In this document: positions 1 through 9,739 of the stretch, one piece after another
How positions within the stretch are numbered: the first letter of the stretch is position 1
Layout: every line of letters begins with the position of its first letter
Assembly (NCBI GenBank): GCA_018333515.1
Contig: JAGXSZ010000030.1
Span: forward strand, 126,501 to 190,500
Direction of reading: 5' to 3'
Length of the DNA stretch: 64,000 nucleotides
From: Actinomycetota bacterium
GTDB taxonomy: Bacteria; Actinomycetota; Aquicultoria; Aquicultorales; Aquicultoraceae
The notes under the pieces: model-generated
Seen by the model: only the letters and a program-made list of their open reading frames with translations
What the model was told of the DNA's origin: nothing
Databases searched by the model: none
Made by a program: the position numbers and the translations under genes

Positions 1-85
1 TACGAAACTCTATAACTTAGCGGCGAGGGGCGGCACGTGCCCAAGGGGTAGTCATTCTCGAGATTCTAAATTTTAAGGAGTCTGA

Positions 86-2026
86 ATGTCTGATAGTAAA
101 ACAGTGTTGACGACATGCACGAGGGATTGCCCTGATACTTGCGGGGTGAGCGCTCGCGTAGTCGGTGGAAGGCTCGTAGCCCTAAACGGCGTTCGAGGAC
201 ATGAGATAACGCGCGGTTTCTTGTGTCGCAAGGCGGTCGACTATATGCGCCGCGTTTACAGCGGCGAGCGTCTTTTGAAACCCGTTCGCAAAGTCGACGG
301 CCAATGGCGGGAGATGAGCTGGGATGAGGCGTTCACCCTGGTGGCCGCCGTGATTAAGAATACGATTGACAAGTACGGATGTCTAGCTATCCTTCACTAT
401 CAGAGCGCGGGCTCGACAGGCGCTCTGAAAATGCTCAACAAACGGTTTTTCAACCTCCTCGGTGGGGTGACCGAAGCCGCGGGGAGCTTATGTGGAGGCG
501 CGGCAATCGCCGGTCAGACATTAGATTTTGGTAAGCGGGAGAGTCATGACCCTAACGACCTTCTAAATTCAAGGTTGATCTTATTGTGGGGGAGGAACCC
601 CGCTGATACCAATCCTCATCTTATTCCGATTCTAAAGTCGGCAAAGTCGCAGGGGGCAAAGGTCATCCTAATCGACCCCTTAGTAACCGACACGAAGCGC
701 TTTTGCGATATGCAAGTGCGCCCGCGCCCCGGTATGGATGGTTATCTGGCGCTTGCGATTGCGAAAGCTATCATTCAATCCGGCAATGCCGACGAGGGTT
801 TTCTGCAAGAGCACACCGACAACACCGAGGCGTTTCTGGAGATGCTCAAGAGCCGGGATATGGCCGAGTTATCCGCGATGTCGGGGGTGCCGGTCGATGA
901 AATCGAGCAGCTGGCGCGGTTGTATGCCGGTCATAAGCCGGCGGCAATTGTTTGCGGCTGGGGATTACAGCGTTATCAGTGGGGCGCCGAGACTTTTCGT
1001 TTGATCGATGCGCTCGGAGCGGTCACCGGCAACTTAGGCGTCGCCGGCGGCGGGGTAAGCCATGGCCGTGATAACGACGGTCTCTTCAACCAAGCGGTAA
1101 AAGGCAAGAGGTTCGCCCGGCACTCGCGAACCATCCCCAAGCCGCTTTTGGCCGCGGCGCTGCGCGAGGCGCAGGACCCGCCGATAAAGATGGCGTTTAT
1201 CAACGGGGCAAACCCGCTCAACCAGTCGCCGGACGCGCCGGCGGTTGCCGGGGCGTTCAAGGATTTGGACTATGTCGTCGTGGTGGAGCAGTTTATGACC
1301 GACACGGCGGAAGCCGCCGACATCGTGTTGCCCGCGACGACCTTTCTCGAAGAGACCGACGTGGTCGCGAGCTTCTGGCACGGCTTTATCGGGTCGGTCA
1401 ACCCGGCTATCGCGCCGGTCGGTGAGGCGAAGTCGGATTTTGAGATATTTCAGGAACTGGCGAATCGTTTGGGTGTCGGGCGCGAGATGGCGGGGAGCGC
1501 CGACGAGTGGCTGGAGCGGATTCTCGAGCCGCTCAAAAGGGAAGGCATCACGCCGGCGTCGCTCCGCGAAGGCCCCCAAAGAATTCCGAACCTGCCGGCG
1601 GTACCTTATGAGGGGGGCGTCTTCCCGACGGAATCGGGGCGTCTTAACCTTATTACGAGTTTCTCGCGACCGCGACTGGGCTCCGACGAGTACCCGCTTA
1701 TCCTGTTGACGCCCCATTCGCGGCGCTGGGTGCACTCACAGGTGTTGCCCCAAGACCATGACGCGCCGCTGGAAGCGAAGGTCAACCCTGAGACCGCCGG
1801 CGCAAACGGCGTCGAAGACGGGGGAGCGGCGACAGTCGTATCCGAAGCGGGAAGCCTCGCGGTAGTCGTGCGGCACGACGAGGGCGTACCTGTCGGGGTC
1901 GTCAGTATCGAGCAAGGCCGCTGGATGAAATACCACCAATCCGTAAACCGGCTTACCTCACCGATCATGAGTTTCGAGGGCGAGAATGCCTGCTACTACC
2001 AGACTACTGTGAAGCTTGTGAGGTAG
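86..2026 (+). CDS. Molybdopterin-dependent oxidoreductase (MopB family)
   Basis: A 646-residue large catalytic subunit of the molybdopterin oxidoreductase superfamily, binding bis-MGD and one [4Fe-4S] cluster. The N-terminal cluster ligands are visible as CTRDCPDTC at residues 11-19 with a fourth Cys in GFLCRK near residue 47. The molybdopterin core follows (LLWGRNP, INGANPLNQSP, DIVLPATTFLEETD), then a C-terminal dinucleotide-binding domain (LTPHSRRWVHS). A Cys in the segment GSLCGGAA near residue 134 lies where the metal ligand is expected, but this was not aligned. No Tat signal is present, so it should be cytoplasmic. AAGGAG precedes the ATG. No partner subunit is adjacent; the ferredoxin at 2663 could serve as one (inference). 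The substrate cannot be read from sequence. Confidence 0.85.
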   Translation: MSDSKTVLTTCTRDCPDTCGVSARVVGGRLVALNGVRGHEITRGFLCRKAVDYMRRVYSGERLLKPVRKVDGQWREMSWDEAFTLVAAVIKNTIDKYGCLAILHYQSAGSTGALKMLNKRFFNLLGGVTEAAGSLCGGAAIAGQTLDFGKRESHDPNDLLNSRLILLWGRNPADTNPHLIPILKSAKSQGAKVILIDPLVTDTKRFCDMQVRPRPGMDGYLALAIAKAIIQSGNADEGFLQEHTDNTEAFLEMLKSRDMAELSAMSGVPVDEIEQLARLYAGHKPAAIVCGWGLQRYQWGAETFRLIDALGAVTGNLGVAGGGVSHGRDNDGLFNQAVKGKRFARHSRTIPKPLLAAALREAQDPPIKMAFINGANPLNQSPDAPAVAGAFKDLDYVVVVEQFMTDTAEAADIVLPATTFLEETDVVASFWHGFIGSVNPAIAPVGEAKSDFEIFQELANRLGVGREMAGSADEWLERILEPLKREGITPASLREGPQRIPNLPAVPYEGGVFPTESGRLNLITSFSRPRLGSDEYPLILLTPHSRRWVHSQVLPQDHDAPLEAKVNPETAGANGVEDGGAATVVSEAGSLAVVVRHDEGVPVGVVSIEQGRWMKYHQSVNRLTSPIMSFEGENACYYQTTVKLVR

Positions 2027-2205
2027 CAGGCTTGTGAAGTAGCAGTGAGGGAGAGGGATGTTTATCGATCCGGCGGTAATAGGTAACATTCGTAAGTTTG
2101 CAGGCGTATCCGGATTATTATAGAAAACGTTGTATATAAAAGGATGTTACACAAAGTATCATCTAATGGATAGAATGTTTACGGGTTAATTATTTAGAGG
2201 TTGCA

Positions 2206-2520
2206 ATGGAACTGCCGAAATGGCTTGAGTTTACATTGTTTATAAGCGCTTGGTTGATTGCTCTCATCCGCCTCCGCTACGCCGTCAAGGCTTACCTTTC
2301 GCGGGGGAGCATTTTTGGTGTCGGCAGAAGGTATTCGCGGGTGGGTTTTATCGCCAATACCGGCTATGCGATAACGGCGGCCCTGTTGGGCGTGTATTTC
2401 CTGCTCGCTTATGTCGACCACAATGCGGCGACTCTGTTTTTCGGGCTTGGGGCGGGGCTTCTCGTCATCGTTGCGATACTCGAATTGACCTTCAGGAGCC
2501 GTGACCTGAAGAGCGGTTAG
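2206..2520 (+). CDS. Small membrane protein, unknown function
   Basis: A 104-residue protein with three predicted hydrophobic segments (about residues 8-25, 46-68 and 75-95) and positively charged loops. It lies 180 bp downstream of the molybdopterin oxidoreductase on the same strand, with a weak GAGG-like ribosome site just before the ATG. I recognise no family. It could be a membrane anchor for a neighbouring redox protein, but nothing in the sequence shows this. Confidence 0.55.
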   Translation: MELPKWLEFTLFISAWLIALIRLRYAVKAYLSRGSIFGVGRRYSRVGFIANTGYAITAALLGVYFLLAYVDHNAATLFFGLGAGLLVIVAILELTFRSRDLKSG

Positions 2521-2617
2521 TCTGTTGCCCACACCGGGTACCCCATCACTCCAATCGCATAAGTATATAATATCACGCTAATATTGAGGGAATACTTGAC
2601 AATAACACCTTAATTCG

Positions 2618-2633
2618 ATACCCTAGGGGGTAT
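2618..2633. promoter_or_regulatory. CsoR/CstR-type operator in front of ferredoxin gene
   Basis: An inverted repeat, ATACCC-TAGG-GGGTAT, sits 30 bp upstream of the ferredoxin start. This G/C-tract palindrome flanked by AT is the form bound by CsoR/CstR/RcnR-family repressors. A TTGACA box lies just upstream at 2596-2601. A closely similar site precedes the thioredoxin gene at 51668, and a CsoR-family gene is at 53014. Binding is inferred. Confidence 0.55.
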
Positions 2634-2662
2634 AAAATAAACAATTGTTCTTGGGGGTATAT

Positions 2663-2902
2663 ATGGCGAAGAAGAAATCAGTCAAGGCGGAAATCGACCA
2701 ATCCAGGTGTGACCGCTCGCCGGGCTGTCCGGCGCGGAGGGCGTGTCCGACAAATGCGATAGTCAGCGACACCCAGAGTGAAACAGTATTTTCGTATTTT
2801 GGATTTGGAACGAAGCCCAACTACTCTATCGAAGAGGATTTATGCGCGGGCTGTGGAGTTTGTACGGCACGGTGCCCGATGGGCGCCATAACGATGCGAT
2901 AG
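2663..2902 (+). CDS. 4Fe-4S dicluster ferredoxin-like protein
   Basis: A 79-residue electron carrier. The C-terminal motif CAGCGVCTARCP is a classical [4Fe-4S] binding set. An N-terminal set, CDRSPGCPARRACP, has the altered spacing seen in ferredoxin-like domains with a second cluster. The start at 2663 (MAKKKS) is preferred over an upstream in-frame ATG at 2645 because GGGGG lies just before it and the basic start fits the family. It heads a tight three-gene cluster with the 95-aa protein at 2914 and the selenoprotein at 3211. A CsoR-like palindrome overlaps the promoter region, so thiol or metal stress control is likely (inference). Confidence 0.75.
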   Translation: MAKKKSVKAEIDQSRCDRSPGCPARRACPTNAIVSDTQSETVFSYFGFGTKPNYSIEEDLCAGCGVCTARCPMGAITMR

Positions 2903-2913
2903 GAGGAGCCGCC

Positions 2914-3201
2914 ATGAGCGCAACCGAAAAAACCGATGCGATGATGGATGACCAGTATGCGACGAAGGTGAAGCAGTATAGGGAAAAAATCAAAGCTATG
3001 GGCAAAGAGGAACTCCAAGATGAACTCGAGATTCTCAACGAGAACCTCGAAGACATAGAGACTGAAAAACGCCTTATTCTCGGCCAGACCGGTGTTCATA
3101 TCAACGCCGTGGCCATTGACGAGTATCGAAATTCGTTCAACCGGGAGATCAAGGCGACTCAAGAGATGATAAATATAGCCAAAGAAGCCCTAGGGGCTTA
3201 G
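2914..3201 (+). CDS. Uncharacterised coiled-coil protein with GQTGVH motif (paralogue 1)
   Basis: A 95-residue, highly charged, mostly helical protein, 11 bp after the ferredoxin with a perfect AGGAGG site. The centre carries GQTGVHINAV followed by a charged helix (RNSFNREIKA). A second copy of the same family is encoded at 8150-8449 on the minus strand (GQTGVHVYAV, REEFEREKA). The N-terminal half is a predicted amphipathic coiled coil with alternating E/K. I know no function. Its place between a ferredoxin and a selenoprotein suggests a redox-linked job, which is inference only. Confidence 0.7.
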   Translation: MSATEKTDAMMDDQYATKVKQYREKIKAMGKEELQDELEILNENLEDIETEKRLILGQTGVHINAVAIDEYRNSFNREIKATQEMINIAKEALGA

Positions 3202-3210
3202 GAGGACAGT

Positions 3211-3534
3211 ATGGAAACGGCAACAAAGCCTATAAGAATAGATATATTTAACGACGGCAACTCATGCGGTTTTGGCTGAGGCTCGCACGGCCTATCTCAG
3301 GCTGAGATAAACTGGATGATAGTCGACCCGCTCAAGGCCAATTACGGGGACGCGGTTGCGATTAACTATTTCGACATAAACGAAGAGAGTTTGCCTCCCG
3401 ACATCAAGAGGCTTATAGAAGAGCATAATCTGCCCGTTCCGTTGACCTTTATCAACGGCGAGAGCGTAAGCGCGGGGTATATCTCATATTATGATTTGAC
3501 CCGAAGGATAGATAGTCTGTTCAAAACCGAATAG
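3211..3534 (+). CDS. Thioredoxin-fold selenoprotein (in-frame UGA, Sec23)
   Basis: Read with UGA at 3277-3279 as selenocysteine, this is a 107-residue protein starting at an ATG with a GGAGGA ribosome site 9 bp after the preceding gene. The N-terminus IDIFNDGNSC is a typical thioredoxin-fold first strand leading into the redox motif CGFGUGSHG. The remainder (VDPLKANYGDAVAINYFDI, LPVPLTFINGESVSAGYIS) keeps the same frame and includes the cis-Pro strand of the fold. It resembles the ArsD/thioredoxin-like group by pattern only. A perfect 7-bp hairpin (TATCTCA-GGC-TGAGATA) starts 14 nt after the UGA, where a bacterial SECIS lies. Standard gene calling would truncate it to 3316-3534. Confidence 0.75.
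3280..3312 (+). promoter_or_regulatory. Putative bacterial SECIS hairpin
   Basis: The hairpin TATCTCA-GGC-TGAGATA at 3293-3309 is a perfect 7-bp stem with a G-containing 3-nt loop. It begins 14 nt downstream of the in-frame UGA, within the coding sequence, where SelB-binding SECIS elements of bacteria are found. Recognition by SelB is inferred. Confidence 0.55.
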
Positions 3535-3615
3535 CGCCGCAACCGAATAGCGTGAAAATCAAATAGCGCCGCAACCGGGTAGCGTTACAACTGAATATGG
3601 TCGAATACAAAGAGG

Positions 3616-3655
3616 ACAAGCTCCGGGTGACAAGCGCCCGGAGCTTGTTTGATTT
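3616..3655. terminator. Bidirectional intrinsic terminator
   Basis: A perfect 12-bp stem (ACAAGCTCCGGG paired with CCCGGAGCTTGT, 9-nt loop) at 3616-3648 is followed by a T-rich run on the plus strand. It lies between the convergent selenoprotein and DUF1015 genes and can serve both. Confidence 0.8.
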
Positions 3656-4951
3656 TTACCACTCGAGCCTATTGAAGACCAGTCCGGATAAGAGCTTCGG
3701 GTAGAAGTAAGTCGACTTCTGCGGCATTATCTCGCCCACGCCGGCTATCCCGCGCACATCGTCGACCTTGGTCGGGTTGAGGAAGAAAGCCATTTGGTAG
3801 GTGCCGCCTTTTACCAGTTCGACGGCTTCGGTTTCATCGGTCGTAAACTTTATGCTGTTCTCGATGTTCGTTCCGCCGAACCCCAGGACGCGGTTGATTA
3901 TCACGTGGTGGAGCATGGTGACGTCGAGAAGTTTCCAAGCTTTGGATTCGGGGCCGTCCAGCAATTGCAGGATACCCGCTTCGTTTTTCAAAGTAAGCAG
4001 GTAGAATGTGTTGTTACCCAGGTATACGCCGATTGAATGCTTGTCCGCGTTGGCCGCAAGTCCGGCCATAACCATATCGACCGCCTCCATTTTCTCGACA
4101 TCAAAGACATACTCCAAGTTCGCGCGGAATTTGTCGTTATTGATCTTAGGCAGGTTTTTTAACATCCGGTGCGTCGGTAATATGGTCAGGCCTTCGCTTT
4201 CCATGTTGACGAACATCATCATCGTAAAGTCGAATGCGCCCTCGCCCGAATTATCGCCGGTGGCCTTGCGCATCTCGTCGCGATAATTGATGGCGGTCTC
4301 GTAACGATGGTGACCGTCGGCTATATATAATGATTTATCGCGCACGAGTTCTTGTATATCGGCTATCACGGCCGGGTCGCTGATTGTCCAGAGGCGGTGG
4401 ATAACGCCGTCGACCTCGATATCGATGCGCGGCTTCTCTTTAGTATGCTCGTAAAGGAGCGCATCGACTTTTTTATCAGGGTCGGAGAAGAGGCTGAAAA
4501 TCTGGCTGAAATTCGTGCCGCAGGCGCGCATCAGACGCAGCCGATCGGCTTTGGGCCCTTTGAGCGTGCGCTCATGGGCTTTGATTTTTCCGGTCGAGAA
4601 GTCCTCGACCCTGGTGAGCGCGATGAACCCGATTCGGTTTATCGTAACACCCCTGACCTCGTATTCTTGTTCATACGCATAGAGGGACGGCTCTAAGTCG
4701 CGCACCAGGACGCCCTTTTCGAGCCAGTCGCTATATGTGGCCCATGCTCTCGCGTATTTATTGTTCTTGGAGCCGTCGGCCGACGAACCTTGAGGAAGTT
4801 CCAGGCGCACTACATTATATTTGCTGTTCTTTAAGAGTGTTTTATGGGCTTCTTCGTCTATAACATCGTATGGAGGAGCGACTACCGTAGATAGGTCTTC
4901 TATGATGCTTTTGTTATACAACACGCCCTTAAAAGGTCTAATTTCTGCCAA
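3656..4951 (-). CDS. DUF1015 family protein
   Basis: A 431-residue protein that matches DUF1015 along its whole length: an N-terminal IRPFKGVLYN segment, APPYDVI near residue 25, and the conserved IADGHHRYETA motif in the middle. DUF1015 proteins are widespread in anaerobes, often beside amino-acid genes, and have been linked to the ParB/free-serine-kinase superfamily; an enzymatic role is not established for this one. It is a single gene, convergent with the selenoprotein cluster and sharing its terminator. Confidence 0.85.
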   Translation of the reverse strand: MAEIRPFKGVLYNKSIIEDLSTVVAPPYDVIDEEAHKTLLKNSKYNVVRLELPQGSSADGSKNNKYARAWATYSDWLEKGVLVRDLEPSLYAYEQEYEVRGVTINRIGFIALTRVEDFSTGKIKAHERTLKGPKADRLRLMRACGTNFSQIFSLFSDPDKKVDALLYEHTKEKPRIDIEVDGVIHRLWTISDPAVIADIQELVRDKSLYIADGHHRYETAINYRDEMRKATGDNSGEGAFDFTMMMFVNMESEGLTILPTHRMLKNLPKINNDKFRANLEYVFDVEKMEAVDMVMAGLAANADKHSIGVYLGNNTFYLLTLKNEAGILQLLDGPESKAWKLLDVTMLHHVIINRVLGFGGTNIENSIKFTTDETEAVELVKGGTYQMAFFLNPTKVDDVRGIAGVGEIMPQKSTYFYPKLLSGLVFNRLEW

Positions 4952-5158
4952 TCTTAACAGTCTCCATTCGTGTAGTCTCGCAACGGCTTGGTCTATTGTT
5001 ATGCCTTAATGGTGCTATCTTAAATATACTAAGGAAACAGCCTGTTTAATGCAAGAACAACGGCGGATTTTGTGAAACGGCGGAGGTCGTTTGAACTCGT
5101 TCTTTAGCGAAACCGTCGAGCCGTTCAAAGCTTTGCGGCAGCGTAGTGCGCCGCGCCG

Positions 5159-5779
5159 CTAGCCTGCTCTCCGGGGACGGCCAAGCTCTTCTCTTCGCGG
5201 GTCTTCAGGGGTCGTAACGGGGATTGATTTTGCGGCCGGCGCGCTCTCCGGTATTGTTGTTTTGCGGGATTGGCGCGAGTTTTGCGCGCGCGCGGTGAGG
5301 GTGAGTGCCGTGTCGAGCCGGACGATATAGCCTTCGCCGAACCTTCCGCCGAACACGCTTCCGGCTAGCGCAAAGACGCCCGCAATCATCAACAGCGGCC
5401 TATACGCCCCGGTTACCGCTTCAATCGAGCCCATGACATCGATACTCAGCGCGTTACCGACGATAACCGTGAACGTACCCGCGAAAAATAGCGTTAAAGC
5501 GCTGGTTACTACGACTAAAACGCCGTTTATCGAACCGCCGACGGCGGCCATGCGACCCGAGACGTAACCGCCGGCAAAGAACGCTGTGAACGCTGATATG
5601 AAAAGGGCAAAGTTTAAATAAAAGCCGCCGATGACTTGCTCGCCATTAATTAGCTGGGCGATGTCGAAGCCCGCGTATAGCGCGAGGCTTACCGTTCCGA
5701 CCAGCATTACCAGAAGCATAAAACAACTGATAACCCAACCAACGAAAACCGCGCCCAGCTTAACCCGTGACCTTGCCAT
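5159..5779 (-). CDS. Four-helix integral membrane protein, unknown
   Basis: A 206-residue protein with four or five hydrophobic helices: about residues 8-35, 52-80 (including FFAGGYVSGRMA), 82-110 and 128-150. A Pro/Ser/Arg-rich cytoplasmic tail makes up the last 50 residues. The glycine-rich GGYVSGR segment recalls small TIGR04086-like membrane proteins, but I cannot assign it firmly. It is monocistronic with a GGAGG ribosome site upstream (minus strand). Confidence 0.6.
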   Translation of the reverse strand: MARSRVKLGAVFVGWVISCFMLLVMLVGTVSLALYAGFDIAQLINGEQVIGGFYLNFALFISAFTAFFAGGYVSGRMAAVGGSINGVLVVVTSALTLFFAGTFTVIVGNALSIDVMGSIEAVTGAYRPLLMIAGVFALAGSVFGGRFGEGYIVRLDTALTLTARAQNSRQSRKTTIPESAPAAKSIPVTTPEDPRREELGRPRRAG

Positions 5780-6379
5780 TGCCGCCTCCAGACTTTTTTA
5801 ACTTCGATGTTCATTGTTGCTTTTCAGTGGTCGAAACGCATATGTTCGCGAAATCCCCGCCGACGCGGGTTCTAACGCCACGCGTGATAGCAAGTGGCGG
5901 CCTTAGCCGTTCTTATTAATTTTGCCCGGATAATAGCGGATTAAACGCTTTTTGGCGCTTTTTATAGGAAACTGTCTTTTGGTGGAGTAAGCTCTTATTG
6001 ATCCATGGTTTTAAGGACAAGCGTTAATCGGACTGAAGCAAGAAATCAGGTCTTGAACGATAAAAAAGAAAAATTATAACTGGTAAAAAGCGGGAAGACC
6101 GCGGGCATCCGTAGAATTCTATTTCATATGAGCAGGTTAAGCGCGTATCGGGACGGGTGGGGTGAGTCGCTAATCATAGCCGCCATGTTTATGAAGTAGC
6201 GCTTGTTGTTGCAATTACATGATGCAATTGTACATCCTATACATTATCGAGAGACGAGTGGCCAGGTTGATACCCGCCCGAGCCTGGCCCGTATGGGGGT
6301 GACGCCGAGTCGTTTAAATGCGAAATTAGCCCGTAAACTGTCGTGTAGGTGTTTGTCGGATTATGAGCGGGGGATAGTA
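5780..6379. other. Long intergenic stretch, no gene recognised
   Basis: About 600 bp between divergent genes. It contains a small hairpin (CGCCAC pairing with GTGGCG, about 5877-5904) and AT-rich DNA near 6040-6130 where promoters may lie. An open frame runs from 6203 into the SprT-like gene, but its first 59 codons have no ribosome site and a composition unlike the rest, so I treat them as untranslated. No tRNA or riboswitch was recognised. Confidence 0.4.
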
Positions 6380-6796
6380 ATGCGTGACAACCGGTGGCTT
6401 CAGGGCAAGCTTGATCGGATTTGGTCGGAATATTACTCCGACGTTCCCAAGACAGAGAACGTAATGATTCATTTTAGTAAGAGATGTAGAAGTAGGTTGG
6501 GCTCTATTCGCCTGGTTGATGAGCGGGTCAGTGAGATTAGGATAAACGGCCTTCTAAGGGAGAAGGATATACCCGATATCGTTTGCGAAGCCGTCATAGC
6601 GCATGAGCTGACCCATTATGTGCACGGTTTTGGCTCAAGGAGGCCCCAGCTTTATAAGTACCCGCATCGCGGCGGCGTCGTAGCTCGCGAGATGATAAAA
6701 AGAGGACTTGGCGAGTCGCATTATGCCGCGAAGGATTGGATAAATACTAATTGGCTCGAGTTTTACGGTGAGAAGATGAAAAAGCCGAAGATTTAA
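6380..6796 (+). CDS. SprT-like zinc metallopeptidase
   Basis: A 138-residue protein with a zinc-protease motif HELTHYVHGF (about residues 77-86). It is preceded by a beta-strand region (SIRLVDERVSEIRIN) and followed by a conserved His/Arg tail (YKYPHRGG), the pattern of SprT/M48-like minimal metalloproteases. The ATG at 6380 is chosen because a GGGGGA site lies 5-8 bp before it; the frame stays open upstream to 6203. Substrate unknown. It lies 70 bp before the SAM synthetase gene on the same strand and may be co-transcribed. Confidence 0.6.
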   Translation: MRDNRWLQGKLDRIWSEYYSDVPKTENVMIHFSKRCRSRLGSIRLVDERVSEIRINGLLREKDIPDIVCEAVIAHELTHYVHGFGSRRPQLYKYPHRGGVVAREMIKRGLGESHYAAKDWINTNWLEFYGEKMKKPKI

Positions 6797-6865
6797 CGTT
6801 AAAGAACGACACGCTAGGGAGCCGATTTTGGTAGATAAGCCTTACGCGCGCGGGAGGTTTGTGCG

Positions 6866-8089
6866 ATGAAGAAGAAGCGGAATATTCTCGTCGAGAGGCT
6901 CGGCGCCAACCCGGTCTTCGAGAACGAGGTCGAGATTGTCGAGCGCAAAGGGGTGGGCCACCCCGACTCCATCTGCGACGCGGTGATGGAAGAGATTTCA
7001 ATCGCGCTCAGCCGCGAGTATTTGAGTTGCTGCGGAAGGGTGCTCCACCACAATATAGACAAGGGATTACTCATCGCCGGTGGGGTCGAGCGCAAGTTCG
7101 GCGGCGGTCGGGTCGTCGAGCCGATGCGACTTATCATCGGCGATAGGGCGACTTTCGAGTTTAATGGGAAGCGGGTTCCGGTCGAGAAAATAGCGGTCAG
7201 TGCGGCTAAAAAATGGATACAGGGCAATTTGCGCTTCGTCGACCCGGATAATGACTTCGAGTTCGACGTTGAACTCAAACCCGGCTCACCCGAACTCTCC
7301 GATATCTTTAACCGCGAGGGGGAGTTGCTGGGGGCAAACGATACGTCCGCCGCGGTCGGCTACGCGCCGCTCAGTGCGACCGAGAAGATGGTTCTCGGCG
7401 TCGAGCACCACCTCAACTCGTCCGCCTTTAAAGAGCGGTTCCCAGTGGCCGGTGAGGATATCAAAGTCATGGCGTATCGTGCCGGCCGTGAACTCCACCT
7501 TACCGTCGCCATGCCCCTTATAGACCGTTATATCGAAAGCGTCGACGAGTATTTCCAGAGAAAGCGAGAGCTGCTCGACTACACGACCGCTTTTGCCAAC
7601 GACAAGACGGAGCGCGACTTTAAGAACGTCTTTGTCTACCTGAATATGCTGGACGCCCCCGGCCGCGGCCTCGACGGTATCTATCTGAGTGTCACAGGCA
7701 CCTCGGCTGAGGACGCGGATTCGGGTCAGGTGGGTCGCGGAAATCGCGTCAACGGTGTCATCGCGCTCAATCGGCCGATGGGCACCGAGGCCGCCGCCGG
7801 CAAGAACCCGGTCAGCCACGTGGGTAAGATATACACTATTCTCGCTCACCGCGTCGCCAACGAGATCTATAACTCCGTCGAGGGTGTCCGCGAGGTCTAC
7901 GTTTGGCTCTGCAGCCAAATCGGCCAACCCATCGACGAGCCGCGCGTCGCGTCAGCGCAGTTGATTTTAGAGCACGGCGCAGCCATCGACAAGATTGAGC
8001 CGCTCGTAAAAGGGGTCATCGACCTCGAACTCGCCAATATCGGCGCGTTCACGACCGAACTCGCCGAGGGCAGGTATAAGGTGTGGTAG
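6866..8089 (+). CDS. mat: S-adenosylmethionine synthetase, archaeal type
   Basis: A 407-residue methionine adenosyltransferase (ATP + methionine to SAM) of the archaeal family (PF01941), not the bacterial MetK family. Recognisable blocks are VERKGVGHPDSICDAVMEE near the N-terminus, GANDTSAAVGYAPLS in the centre, MAYRAGRELHLTVAMPL and the GRGNRVNGVIALNRPMG segment. Length fits the archaeal enzyme (about 400 aa). A GGAGG-like site precedes the ATG. It supplies SAM for the radical SAM enzymes MqnE and MqnC in this window. The gene is unusual in bacteria and may be an ancient transfer (inference). Confidence 0.9.
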   Translation: MKKKRNILVERLGANPVFENEVEIVERKGVGHPDSICDAVMEEISIALSREYLSCCGRVLHHNIDKGLLIAGGVERKFGGGRVVEPMRLIIGDRATFEFNGKRVPVEKIAVSAAKKWIQGNLRFVDPDNDFEFDVELKPGSPELSDIFNREGELLGANDTSAAVGYAPLSATEKMVLGVEHHLNSSAFKERFPVAGEDIKVMAYRAGRELHLTVAMPLIDRYIESVDEYFQRKRELLDYTTAFANDKTERDFKNVFVYLNMLDAPGRGLDGIYLSVTGTSAEDADSGQVGRGNRVNGVIALNRPMGTEAAAGKNPVSHVGKIYTILAHRVANEIYNSVEGVREVYVWLCSQIGQPIDEPRVASAQLILEHGAAIDKIEPLVKGVIDLELANIGAFTTELAEGRYKVW

Positions 8090-8149
8090 GGCAACGCGCT
8101 CGCGGCTCGTTCGGCATCGGTTTCGTCCAGGCTCGATGAAAAGCCGGCC

Positions 8150-8449
8150 TTAGCCCGACAGCGCCTCTGCGGCAAGCCGTTTCTTCTCGTTGATGCGGGC
8201 TTTCTCGCGCTCGAACTCTTCGCGCGAAGCTTCTATCTGGACCGCATAGACATGTACGCCGGTCTGCCCTATCATCTGCTTCATCTCATCTTCAGCGTCT
8301 TCAAGCGCAGCGTCTAGCCGCGCAAGCTCCGCTTCGATCTCGCCCTTATCCATCGTCTTCACTTTTTCGGCGTAGTCCTTGATCTCTTGCGAGTTCGCGA
8401 GTTCAAGCTTGATCTCTTCTTCGAGTGCGTTGTTTTTGTCGACCGCCAT
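8150..8449 (-). CDS. Uncharacterised coiled-coil protein with GQTGVH motif (paralogue 2)
   Basis: A 99-residue charged helical protein homologous to the product of 2914-3201. Both share the helix preceding the motif, GQTGVH plus a hydrophobic AV pair, and a REEFEREKA-like helix. The ATG at 8449 follows a strong AGGAGG site. It is a single gene convergent with mat. Function unknown; being maintained as two copies suggests a conserved lineage-specific role. Confidence 0.65.
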   Translation of the reverse strand: MAVDKNNALEEEIKLELANSQEIKDYAEKVKTMDKGEIEAELARLDAALEDAEDEMKQMIGQTGVHVYAVQIEASREEFEREKARINEKKRLAAEALSG

Positions 8450-8607
8450 CTTGGTCCTCCTGTTATCTTAGCGGCGCGTGGACGCCGAGCGTCATCCGCG
8501 CCGAATTGCGGCAATACCCCTAACGGTTATCTCTTTAAGTTGGTCGCGGGATGTCCGGTTTCATATTAAGATTGTTGCCTTTCGGGGAGACTCTTAAACT
8601 TTGAGCC

Positions 8608-8634
8608 GCCGGCAAGCCGCAAAGCGGTTGCCGG
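8608..8634. terminator. GC-rich hairpin downstream of diguanylate cyclase
   Basis: CCGGCAA-g-CCGC pairs with GCGG-TTGCCGG around an AAA loop. It lies 92 bp past the GGDEF gene stop (minus strand) and has no clear U-tract. It could be a weak or Rho-assisted terminator, or part of an unrecognised leader of the 8449 gene. Confidence 0.35.
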
Positions 8635-8725
8635 GTTCGGTCGCAAGGTTCTCGATACAAGGGGTTTGTTAGATGGCGTAAGCCAGGCAACAGATGCGCC
8701 GTTGGGGGCTCATGGGCTTGTAGCC

Positions 8726-9739
8726 CTAAGCTTTAGCGGAGACGGTGTCGCGGCACCCCATATCGCCCGAATAGATAATTAAATCACGTCCGGCCTGCTT
8801 GGCCTCGTAAAGGGCACTATCGGCGGTCGCGATAAGCTCATCCTTATTCCGGGCGCAAGCCGGATAGTCGGACACGCCGACGCTTACCGTGCATTTTAAA
8901 TCGGCGGCGACATCCGCTAATTCCTCAGCTATGAATGCCGGGAGCCGTTTGTTGATGCGCTTGGCTACCCGAATAGCGTGTTTGACATGAGTTGAAGGTA
9001 GGATGACGAGGAACTCCTCGCCTCCATAGCGAACCGCCAGGTCGTCCCCGCGAATGGCGTTCTTTAGAAACTTCGCGAAGGCCTTGAGAACCTCATCACC
9101 GACCTGGTGACCATAGGTATCGTTTACTTTTTTGAAATGGTCGAGGTCGGCCATGAGCACCGATAGCGGCTTGCCGCTCATTTGGGCGTCCGCCATCGCC
9201 CTTTCGAGCTTTACGACCATGCTTTTGCGGTTAAAGAGCCCGGTCAGAGGGTCGGTCTCGGCGTCTTCTTTGGCAAGGTTAAGATTATGCTCGATCTCCA
9301 GCCAAAGCATTGCGTTTTGCTCCTCGCGCTCGGCTATCATTTTGTCTTGTACCTTAAGTTTCCGCTCCTTCTCCTCTATTCTTGCCGCAAACGAGTTAAC
9401 CTCATCGGCCAGTGTCGACACGCAAGCTATCTCATCGACCTCAAGGCGTCCGTCGAAGCGCCCGGAGACCTTGAGTTCTTTAAGATGGTCGGAGATGAGT
9501 TCGATCGAACCGAGGACGCGAATAATCGTGGAGGCAACCCAAATCGCAAAGCCCATACTCGCGAGCGATAGTATCGCCGCCAACGGTCGAGCGTAAGACG
9601 CCGTCGCAACAGCGCTCTCACTTAAGATAAACACAAGCGCAAGTAGCCCGATCAATGGTGAAATCGCGGCAAATATGAAGACCGCACGAGCAATCGGCTT
9701 CCTATTCAGTTTCCGCAAATTCGACAATACGAGCTTCAA
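8726..9739 (-). CDS. Membrane-bound diguanylate cyclase (GGDEF)
   Basis: A 337-residue c-di-GMP synthase. Two N-terminal membrane helices (about 17-40 and 48-68) are followed by a HAMP-like/coiled-coil linker (about 70-160) and a C-terminal GGDEF domain. The domain carries DPLTGLFNRK, DLDHFKKVNDTYGH and the active motif GGEEF. An RGDD sits five residues before GGEEF, the position of the product-inhibition I-site (RxxD). No EAL domain. The lack of an extracellular sensory loop suggests sensing through the membrane or coiled coil (inference). Confidence 0.9.
   Translation of the reverse strand: MKLVLSNLRKLNRKPIARAVFIFAAISPLIGLLALVFILSESAVATASYARPLAAILSLASMGFAIWVASTIIRVLGSIELISDHLKELKVSGRFDGRLEVDEIACVSTLADEVNSFAARIEEKERKLKVQDKMIAEREEQNAMLWLEIEHNLNLAKEDAETDPLTGLFNRKSMVVKLERAMADAQMSGKPLSVLMADLDHFKKVNDTYGHQVGDEVLKAFAKFLKNAIRGDDLAVRYGGEEFLVILPSTHVKHAIRVAKRINKRLPAFIAEELADVAADLKCTVSVGVSDYPACARNKDELIATADSALYEAKQAGRDLIIYSGDMGCRDTVSAKA

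Follow-up and report, generated by a model that had tools for sequence, protein, structure and literature searches.

We analysed a window of 64,000 nucleotides (the whole stretch of DNA considered here) from a bacterium of the Aquicultoraceae, in the Actinomycetota. On its forward strand, positions 3211–3534 translate as a single gene of 107 codons whose frame stays open across a UGA at 3277–3279. The features of this locus are listed below. Family-level groups of genomes are labelled f1 (that of the window), f71, f52, f29, f35 and f14.

86..2026, forward strand: molybdopterin oxidoreductase (Pfam Molybdopterin, E 1.7e-56), upstream neighbour
2206..2520, forward strand: small protein, probably of the membrane, whose upstream position is conserved in f1; no family match over the cut-off
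2663..2902, forward strand: ferredoxin with cysteine clusters CDRSPGCPARRACP and CAGCGVCTARCP (Pfam Fer4)
2914..3201, forward strand: GQTGVH protein, 95 aa, probably coiled-coil, without cysteine
3201..3206, forward strand: Shine-Dalgarno sequence GGAGGA, overlapping the stop codon of the preceding gene
3211..3534, forward strand: predicted selenoprotein gene, 107 codons, thioredoxin fold, Cys19-Gly-Phe-Gly-Sec23 (from translation through the UGA, homologues, the fold model and the match to 1xg8)
3277..3279, forward strand: predicted selenocysteine (Sec) UGA, codon 23; UGA in the same alignment column in 24 genes of 23 genomes
3293..3309, forward strand: putative SECIS apical hairpin with a GGC loop on a 7-bp stem, the loop lying 20 nt past the UGA (from covariation and synonymous freezing of codons 29, 30, 32 and 33)
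3656..4951, reverse strand: DUF1015 protein (Pfam), convergent neighbour bounding the operon, position conserved

An earlier note on this DNA had described a GGAGGA-preceded start joined to an in-frame UGA at 3277, and both were borne out, with the ATG at 3211 and the UGA as codon 23. The frame that it gave as 70 codons after the UGA is present and somewhat longer, with 84 sense codons before the TAG at 3532–3534.

We searched for homologues with a single sequence and with profiles. Across 296 genomes of the phylum, the selenoprotein query found matches in 13, and in 11 of these the matched region contained a UGA. The nearest named relatives are Candidatus Aquicultor metagenome-assembled genomes (MAGs), whose protein is 92–93% identical; genome G159 belongs to the same genus as that of the window. 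Profile A1 matched 12 of 36 genomes of the class (E ≤0.01) and 28 of 396 of the phylum (E ≤0.001). The profile searches covered the phylum, and the wider genome scan used the single query P0001, which reaches close relatives only. That scan gave one 31-residue match in a Patescibacteria contig (L029), which we dropped as chance. Viral contigs searched with P0001 held no relative, plasmids searched with P0001 and the f29 protein of L058 gave no match, and Rfam found nothing at or above the gathering score in positions 1–9000 of the window.

The UGA falls in one alignment column in five family-level groups: ten genes (nine genomes) in f1, one in f71, three in f52, seven in f29 and three in f35. 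The surrounding motif is CGFGU in f1, which also has CGSGU, CSFGU and CGGFGU; it is CSGGGU in f71, CFSGGU in f52, CSGGU or CSSGU in f29, and CRGGGU or CHAGGU in f35. Three or four residues therefore separate Cys and Sec across the family. The CxxxU spacing, described before as unusual, is real in the window, but it is not a fixed signature, since relatives carry either CxxxU or CxxxxU and the YuzD relative has CxxC at this place. Some members (L023, L049, L059, L060 and L061) were trimmed a few codons past their likely start, and L021, L022, L046, L054 and L062 are in alignment A3 and absent from A4.

Cysteine homologues at codon 23 were found as well. Those of f14 are L021 (CGGYGC) and L054 (CGGCGC); the Cys of L021 was matched by eye, from CGGYGC against the CGGFGU of L014, whereas MAFFT aligns the cysteines of L021 differently. 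In the YuzD relative, this region reads CASC. All these homologues run through codon 23, and none ends or starts there.

Four distant paralogues from Aquicultor relatives (L044, L047, L048 and L049), which lie outside A3 and A4, contain an in-frame UGA in SGUSSSGAAGGCG or SGUGPRFTAGSCF. Their UGA lies upstream of a Cys that falls close to the usual Sec column. They are possibly a second uncatalogued selenoprotein family. The genome of the window encodes an L049-type paralogue on contig C35 (L093), which reads SGLGPRFTAGSCF, with Leu where its relative has the UGA; this is a possible loss of Sec.

Both halves of the gene evolve as protein. The ratio pN/pS was 0–0.38 before the UGA (up to 19 codons) in all 14 gene pairs computed, and 0.10–0.58 after it (60 codons, 14 pairs), which indicates purifying selection on protein-coding sequence on either side. 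These values bear on the simplest alternative, an ordinary stop that ends a 22-residue peptide and is followed by a separate 72-residue ORF from the ATG at 3316, with no selenocysteine. The 72-codon ORF is mechanically present. Yet it lacks strand 1 and the active site, whereas strand 1 and Cys19 belong to the 22-residue piece, which is conserved as protein; moreover, the UGA is kept in 24 genes and the Cys homologues read through. The protein-level conservation upstream of the UGA led us to reject the two-ORF reading, which we regard as highly improbable.

The UGA might also encode another residue through a change of the genetic code, or reflect a frameshift or pseudogene artefact. We found no support for any of these, and we consider them exceedingly improbable. 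UGA is the ordinary stop of eight of the 48 non-overlapping ORFs of at least 150 codons in the window, so that we rejected it as a generic sense codon, and the homologous residue is Cys. An artefact is further contradicted by the identical UGA in separate assemblies and by the purifying selection on both sides.

The perfect 7-bp hairpin with a GGC loop that the earlier note had reported downstream of the UGA was confirmed at 3293–3309. Its arms are UAUCUCA (3293–3299) and UGAGAUA (3303–3309), around GGC at 3300–3302; the stem begins 14 nt past the UGA. The two strands of the window contain 1,720 TGA trinucleotides, of which six (this one counted) precede a comparable stem, i.e., at least 7 Watson-Crick pairs closing a 3-nt loop with G first, 16–37 nt from the TGA. 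Hence, the hairpin by itself is no more than suggestive. The folding energy (-11.4 kcal/mol) is ordinary, with a z of -0.86 and an equally good energy in 41 of 200 shuffles. We therefore rejected energy as the sole evidence for the hairpin and used covariation and synonymous freezing instead.

We aligned 24 hairpins (20 distinct) on the loop. Pairing is kept in 97.9% of the 140 cells, and both sides have changed in 20 cells. The covariation score was 0.447 against 0.163 in shuffled alignments (none of 500 reached 0.447) and at most 0.141 for slid partners; relatedness of the sequences inflates such scores, an inflation that the slid controls share. At column pair 5–21, ten of the 20 sequences have U-A and eight have G-C, and pair 11–15 takes six standard pair types. 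Three of the seven pairs are invariant and thus uninformative for covariation, and one pair is broken in each of two f52 hairpins and one f1 hairpin. Synonymous changes are scarce in the same place. In comparisons of eight f1 genes, restricted to pairs that keep the residue, the codon differed in 0/28 cases for TCT29, 0/21 for CAG30, 0/28 for GAG32 and 0/28 for ATA33. Differences amounted to 45/177 over codons 28–34 versus 627/1154 over codons 35–102, and the six-codon stretch from codon 29 had the least synonymous change of 73 such stretches. The frozen codons coincide with the hairpin, and the compensatory changes together with this freezing are as would be expected for a bacterial SECIS.

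The genome of the window encodes the machinery required to insert selenocysteine, for which a search had been proposed. All four genes sit in one cluster on contig C23: tRNA-Sec (selC, 76.4 bits), selB (381.7 bits against a cut-off of 242, TIGR00475), selA (622 bits) and selD. The latter has its own in-frame UGA at codon 16, followed by GGTCC-GGG-GGACC, a hairpin built alike, whose triloop also starts with G and lies 17 nt past the UGA (spacing by eye). Across 48 genomes, selA was over the cut-off in 21 of the 23 with UGA in the codon-23 column, and was not found in the two others, G296 (77% complete) and G083 (97%). Nor was it found in the three genomes with Cys forms only (G071, G093 and G115); these all belong to one family-level group, f14, which makes the contrast only suggestive. 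Since selA was also present in 16 of 19 comparison genomes without the selenoprotein gene, its co-occurrence is weak evidence and we rejected it as proof. The remaining three genomes (G020, G105 and G233) were all selA-positive.

Taken with the conservation, the covariation and the frozen synonymous sites, these Sec genes strongly support the selenoprotein claim. From this comparative evidence, we conclude that the UGA at 3277–3279 is almost certainly read as selenocysteine under the direction of the hairpin at 3293–3309; a ribosome with SelB and tRNA-Sec would make the insertion.

The protein was also expected to have a thioredoxin-like fold, and modelling agreed. AlphaFold2, run with 29 sequences, predicted a thioredoxin fold (mean pLDDT 82.6, pTM 0.74) in which Sec23 would lie in the loop before helix 1, with the conserved Cys19 N-terminal to it and the conserved Pro77 before the third strand. 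Confidence is lowest for residues 21–25, around the Sec, where pLDDT falls below 50. The top match in both structure searches was 1xg8, i.e., SA0798 of Staphylococcus aureus, a member of YuzD/DUF1462 (Foldseek E 1.6e-5; VIA Z 10.0, 3.0 Å over 101 residues), and a profile sequence search reached the same entry at E 1.2e-8. The two proteins have the thioredoxin-like fold in common over their whole length, and the CASC cysteines of the YuzD relative align with Cys19 and Sec23. They differ in the active site, which is Cys in CxxC in YuzD/DUF1462 and Sec in CxxxU in the window. The Pfam family DUF1462 (PF07315) matches 15 of the 29 members at E 0.1. The window protein is below the gathering cut-off (19.7 versus 25 bits), and the three UGA members of f52 pass it (30.4–34.1 bits); in the f52 genomes the Pfam match starts only past the UGA.

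The second structural neighbour by Foldseek was ArsD (3mwh, 9.8e-4), which is of similar size and of the same fold class (3mwh, 3kgk). ArsD has a metalloid site made of cysteines. It lacks Sec, and the window gene does not lie among ars genes: the scanned neighbours were not ars genes, and the window protein had no ArsD Pfam match at E 1. A weak Pfam ArsD match was found in three of the 29 members. Other small thioredoxin-fold selenoproteins also have a Cys-Sec pair, and SelW structures were among the fold matches. These are nevertheless other families with other spacings, CxU or UxC in Sec.1 and Sec.2 (PF13192) and CxxU in the SELENOW-like proteins, according to Table 1 of PMC13188914.

The gene order around the selenoprotein gene is partly conserved. 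The gene of the GQTGVH protein, which has no Pfam or NCBIfam match over the cut-off, is directly upstream at all 11 f1 and f71 loci (the window, L025 and L066–L074) and was not found at the 11 other loci examined (L075–L085). Of the 14 loci in f1, f71 and f52, 10 have a complete ferredoxin gene next to the selenoprotein gene, upstream at the window, L025, L066–L069 and L075–L077 and downstream at L074. It is missing at L071, L072 and L073. At L070, beside the selenoprotein gene of Aquicultor secundus, the ferredoxin (L028:2443-2568) is in pieces in two frames, which reflects either an assembly frameshift or a decaying gene. The f1 and f52 ferredoxins have the motif CDRSP(A/G)CPA(R/S)R in common. 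The molybdopterin oxidoreductase is also upstream at L025, L066, L068, L069, L071 and L073.

The proposal that these genes form a new redox trio stood only in part. The link with ferredoxin holds to some extent, as ferredoxin genes also adjoin the selenoprotein gene in two more family-level groups, and the GQTGVH gene is always adjacent in the lineage. However, the ferredoxin is absent from three loci of the lineage, and the GQTGVH protein has neither Cys nor Sec. We therefore rejected it as a redox partner; it might instead be a scaffold or docking partner. Two further relatives of this protein were observed. The window encodes a second GQTGVH protein at 8150–8449 on the reverse strand, about 43% identical, with no known selenoprotein gene adjoining it. 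In f35 (L090:3-1583; L092), a long membrane-type protein, which by eye reads like DedA plus PAP2 phosphatase domains, ends at its C-terminus in a GQTGVH-like segment (GGTGVH).

More distant branches have other neighbours. All four f29 loci examined (of seven) have a ThiI-like PP-loop gene immediately before the selenoprotein gene, and three of the four also have a thiouracil desulfurase (TudS, PF04463). In f35, a thioredoxin gene precedes the selenoprotein gene at both loci examined (of three). Genome G191 carries the selenoprotein gene twice, and the second copy is preceded by OsmC, a type III sulfide:quinone reductase and a GQTGVH-like gene. This reductase (L072:674-1918) itself has an in-frame UGA (HATU) followed by a hairpin, and Table 1 of PMC13188914 gives HxxU as the motif of the selenoprotein subtype (NF049943). 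It is a flavoprotein neighbour, not a homologue of the selenoprotein described here.

Considering all this evidence, the best explanation as a whole is probably a Sec-decoded selenol redoxin of thioredoxin fold, and the redox role itself is likely. Sec23 would attack an oxidised substrate, and Cys19 would resolve the adduct as a Cys-Sec bond. The reductant of the cell would then resupply the electrons; in the window this is probably the ferredoxin of the adjoining gene, and in f35 the adjoining thioredoxin. The most likely substrate, which we put forward tentatively, may be a persulfide or other sulfane sulfur, since two branches sit with sulfur-handling genes. This sulfur role rests on the neighbours of distant branches; the Aquicultor locus has no recognised adjoining sulfur gene.

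It is also quite possible that the protein is a general thiol:disulfide or antioxidant selenoprotein that draws on ferredoxin or thioredoxin and is not specifically tied to sulfane sulfur. The thioredoxin fold is consistent with this, as are the ferredoxin at 10 of the 14 loci in three family-level groups and the thioredoxin at both f35 loci. Against it are the sulfur-acting neighbours in two branches, TudS with the ThiI-like gene in one and the type III sulfide:quinone reductase in the other.

A third role, as a metallochaperone like ArsD that is neither reductase nor sulfur carrier, would fit the structural match to 3mwh, the weak ArsD matches in three members and the genes around two distant forms. 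One is a YuzD/ArsD-like member (L022:1378-1737, locus L078) that has its UGA elsewhere in the N-terminal region, in GGUGPVCEPADCGP. It sits behind an ArsD-like and two ArsA-like genes (by eye), with an FmdB-like gene on the other side, and is possibly an arsenic-related selenoprotein. The other is the Cys form L021 (locus L084), followed by an ArsM-like gene (label by eye). In contrast, the genes beside the Aquicultor, f52, f29 and f35 members are redox or sulfur genes and not Ars genes, and we find the metalloid role unlikely. The redox, sulfur, general disulfide and metalloid roles may overlap.

One broader reading of the redoxin would join several of these observations, and we consider it rather doubtful. 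The Actinomycetota would harbour a large, uncatalogued YuzD/ArsD-like branch in which Sec makes the protein a reductively recharged carrier of sulfane sulfur, with arsenic handled in side branches. In the Aquicultor and f52 versions, a dedicated ferredoxin would pass electrons directly to the selenol, bypassing thioredoxin reductase, and the two proteins would be docked by the GQTGVH protein.

The family is an uncatalogued one of thioredoxin-fold selenoproteins. The NCBIfam selenoprotein models (June 2026) matched none of the 29 A3 members at E 0.1. A catalogue of May 2026 (PMC13188914) comprises 119 selenoprotein families and subfamilies, and its Table 1 contains neither PF07315/DUF1462 nor the C-x3-U and C-x4-U motifs. 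A literature search that left most subscription papers outside its reach returned nothing on a selenoprotein YuzD, DUF1462 or CxxxU; combined with ArsD, the term selenoprotein gave only unrelated matches in the accessible part of the literature.

With at least 24 genes that contain the UGA, this family enlarges the prokaryotic selenoproteome; gene finders that treat every UGA as a stop can be expected to truncate such genes. Sec is now placed in the fold family of YuzD/DUF1462, whose function is unknown according to Pfam. The genes beside the Sec forms (ferredoxin, thioredoxin, thiouracil desulfurase, sulfide:quinone reductase and arsenic-like genes) are informative, and hence the function of DUF1462 becomes testable.
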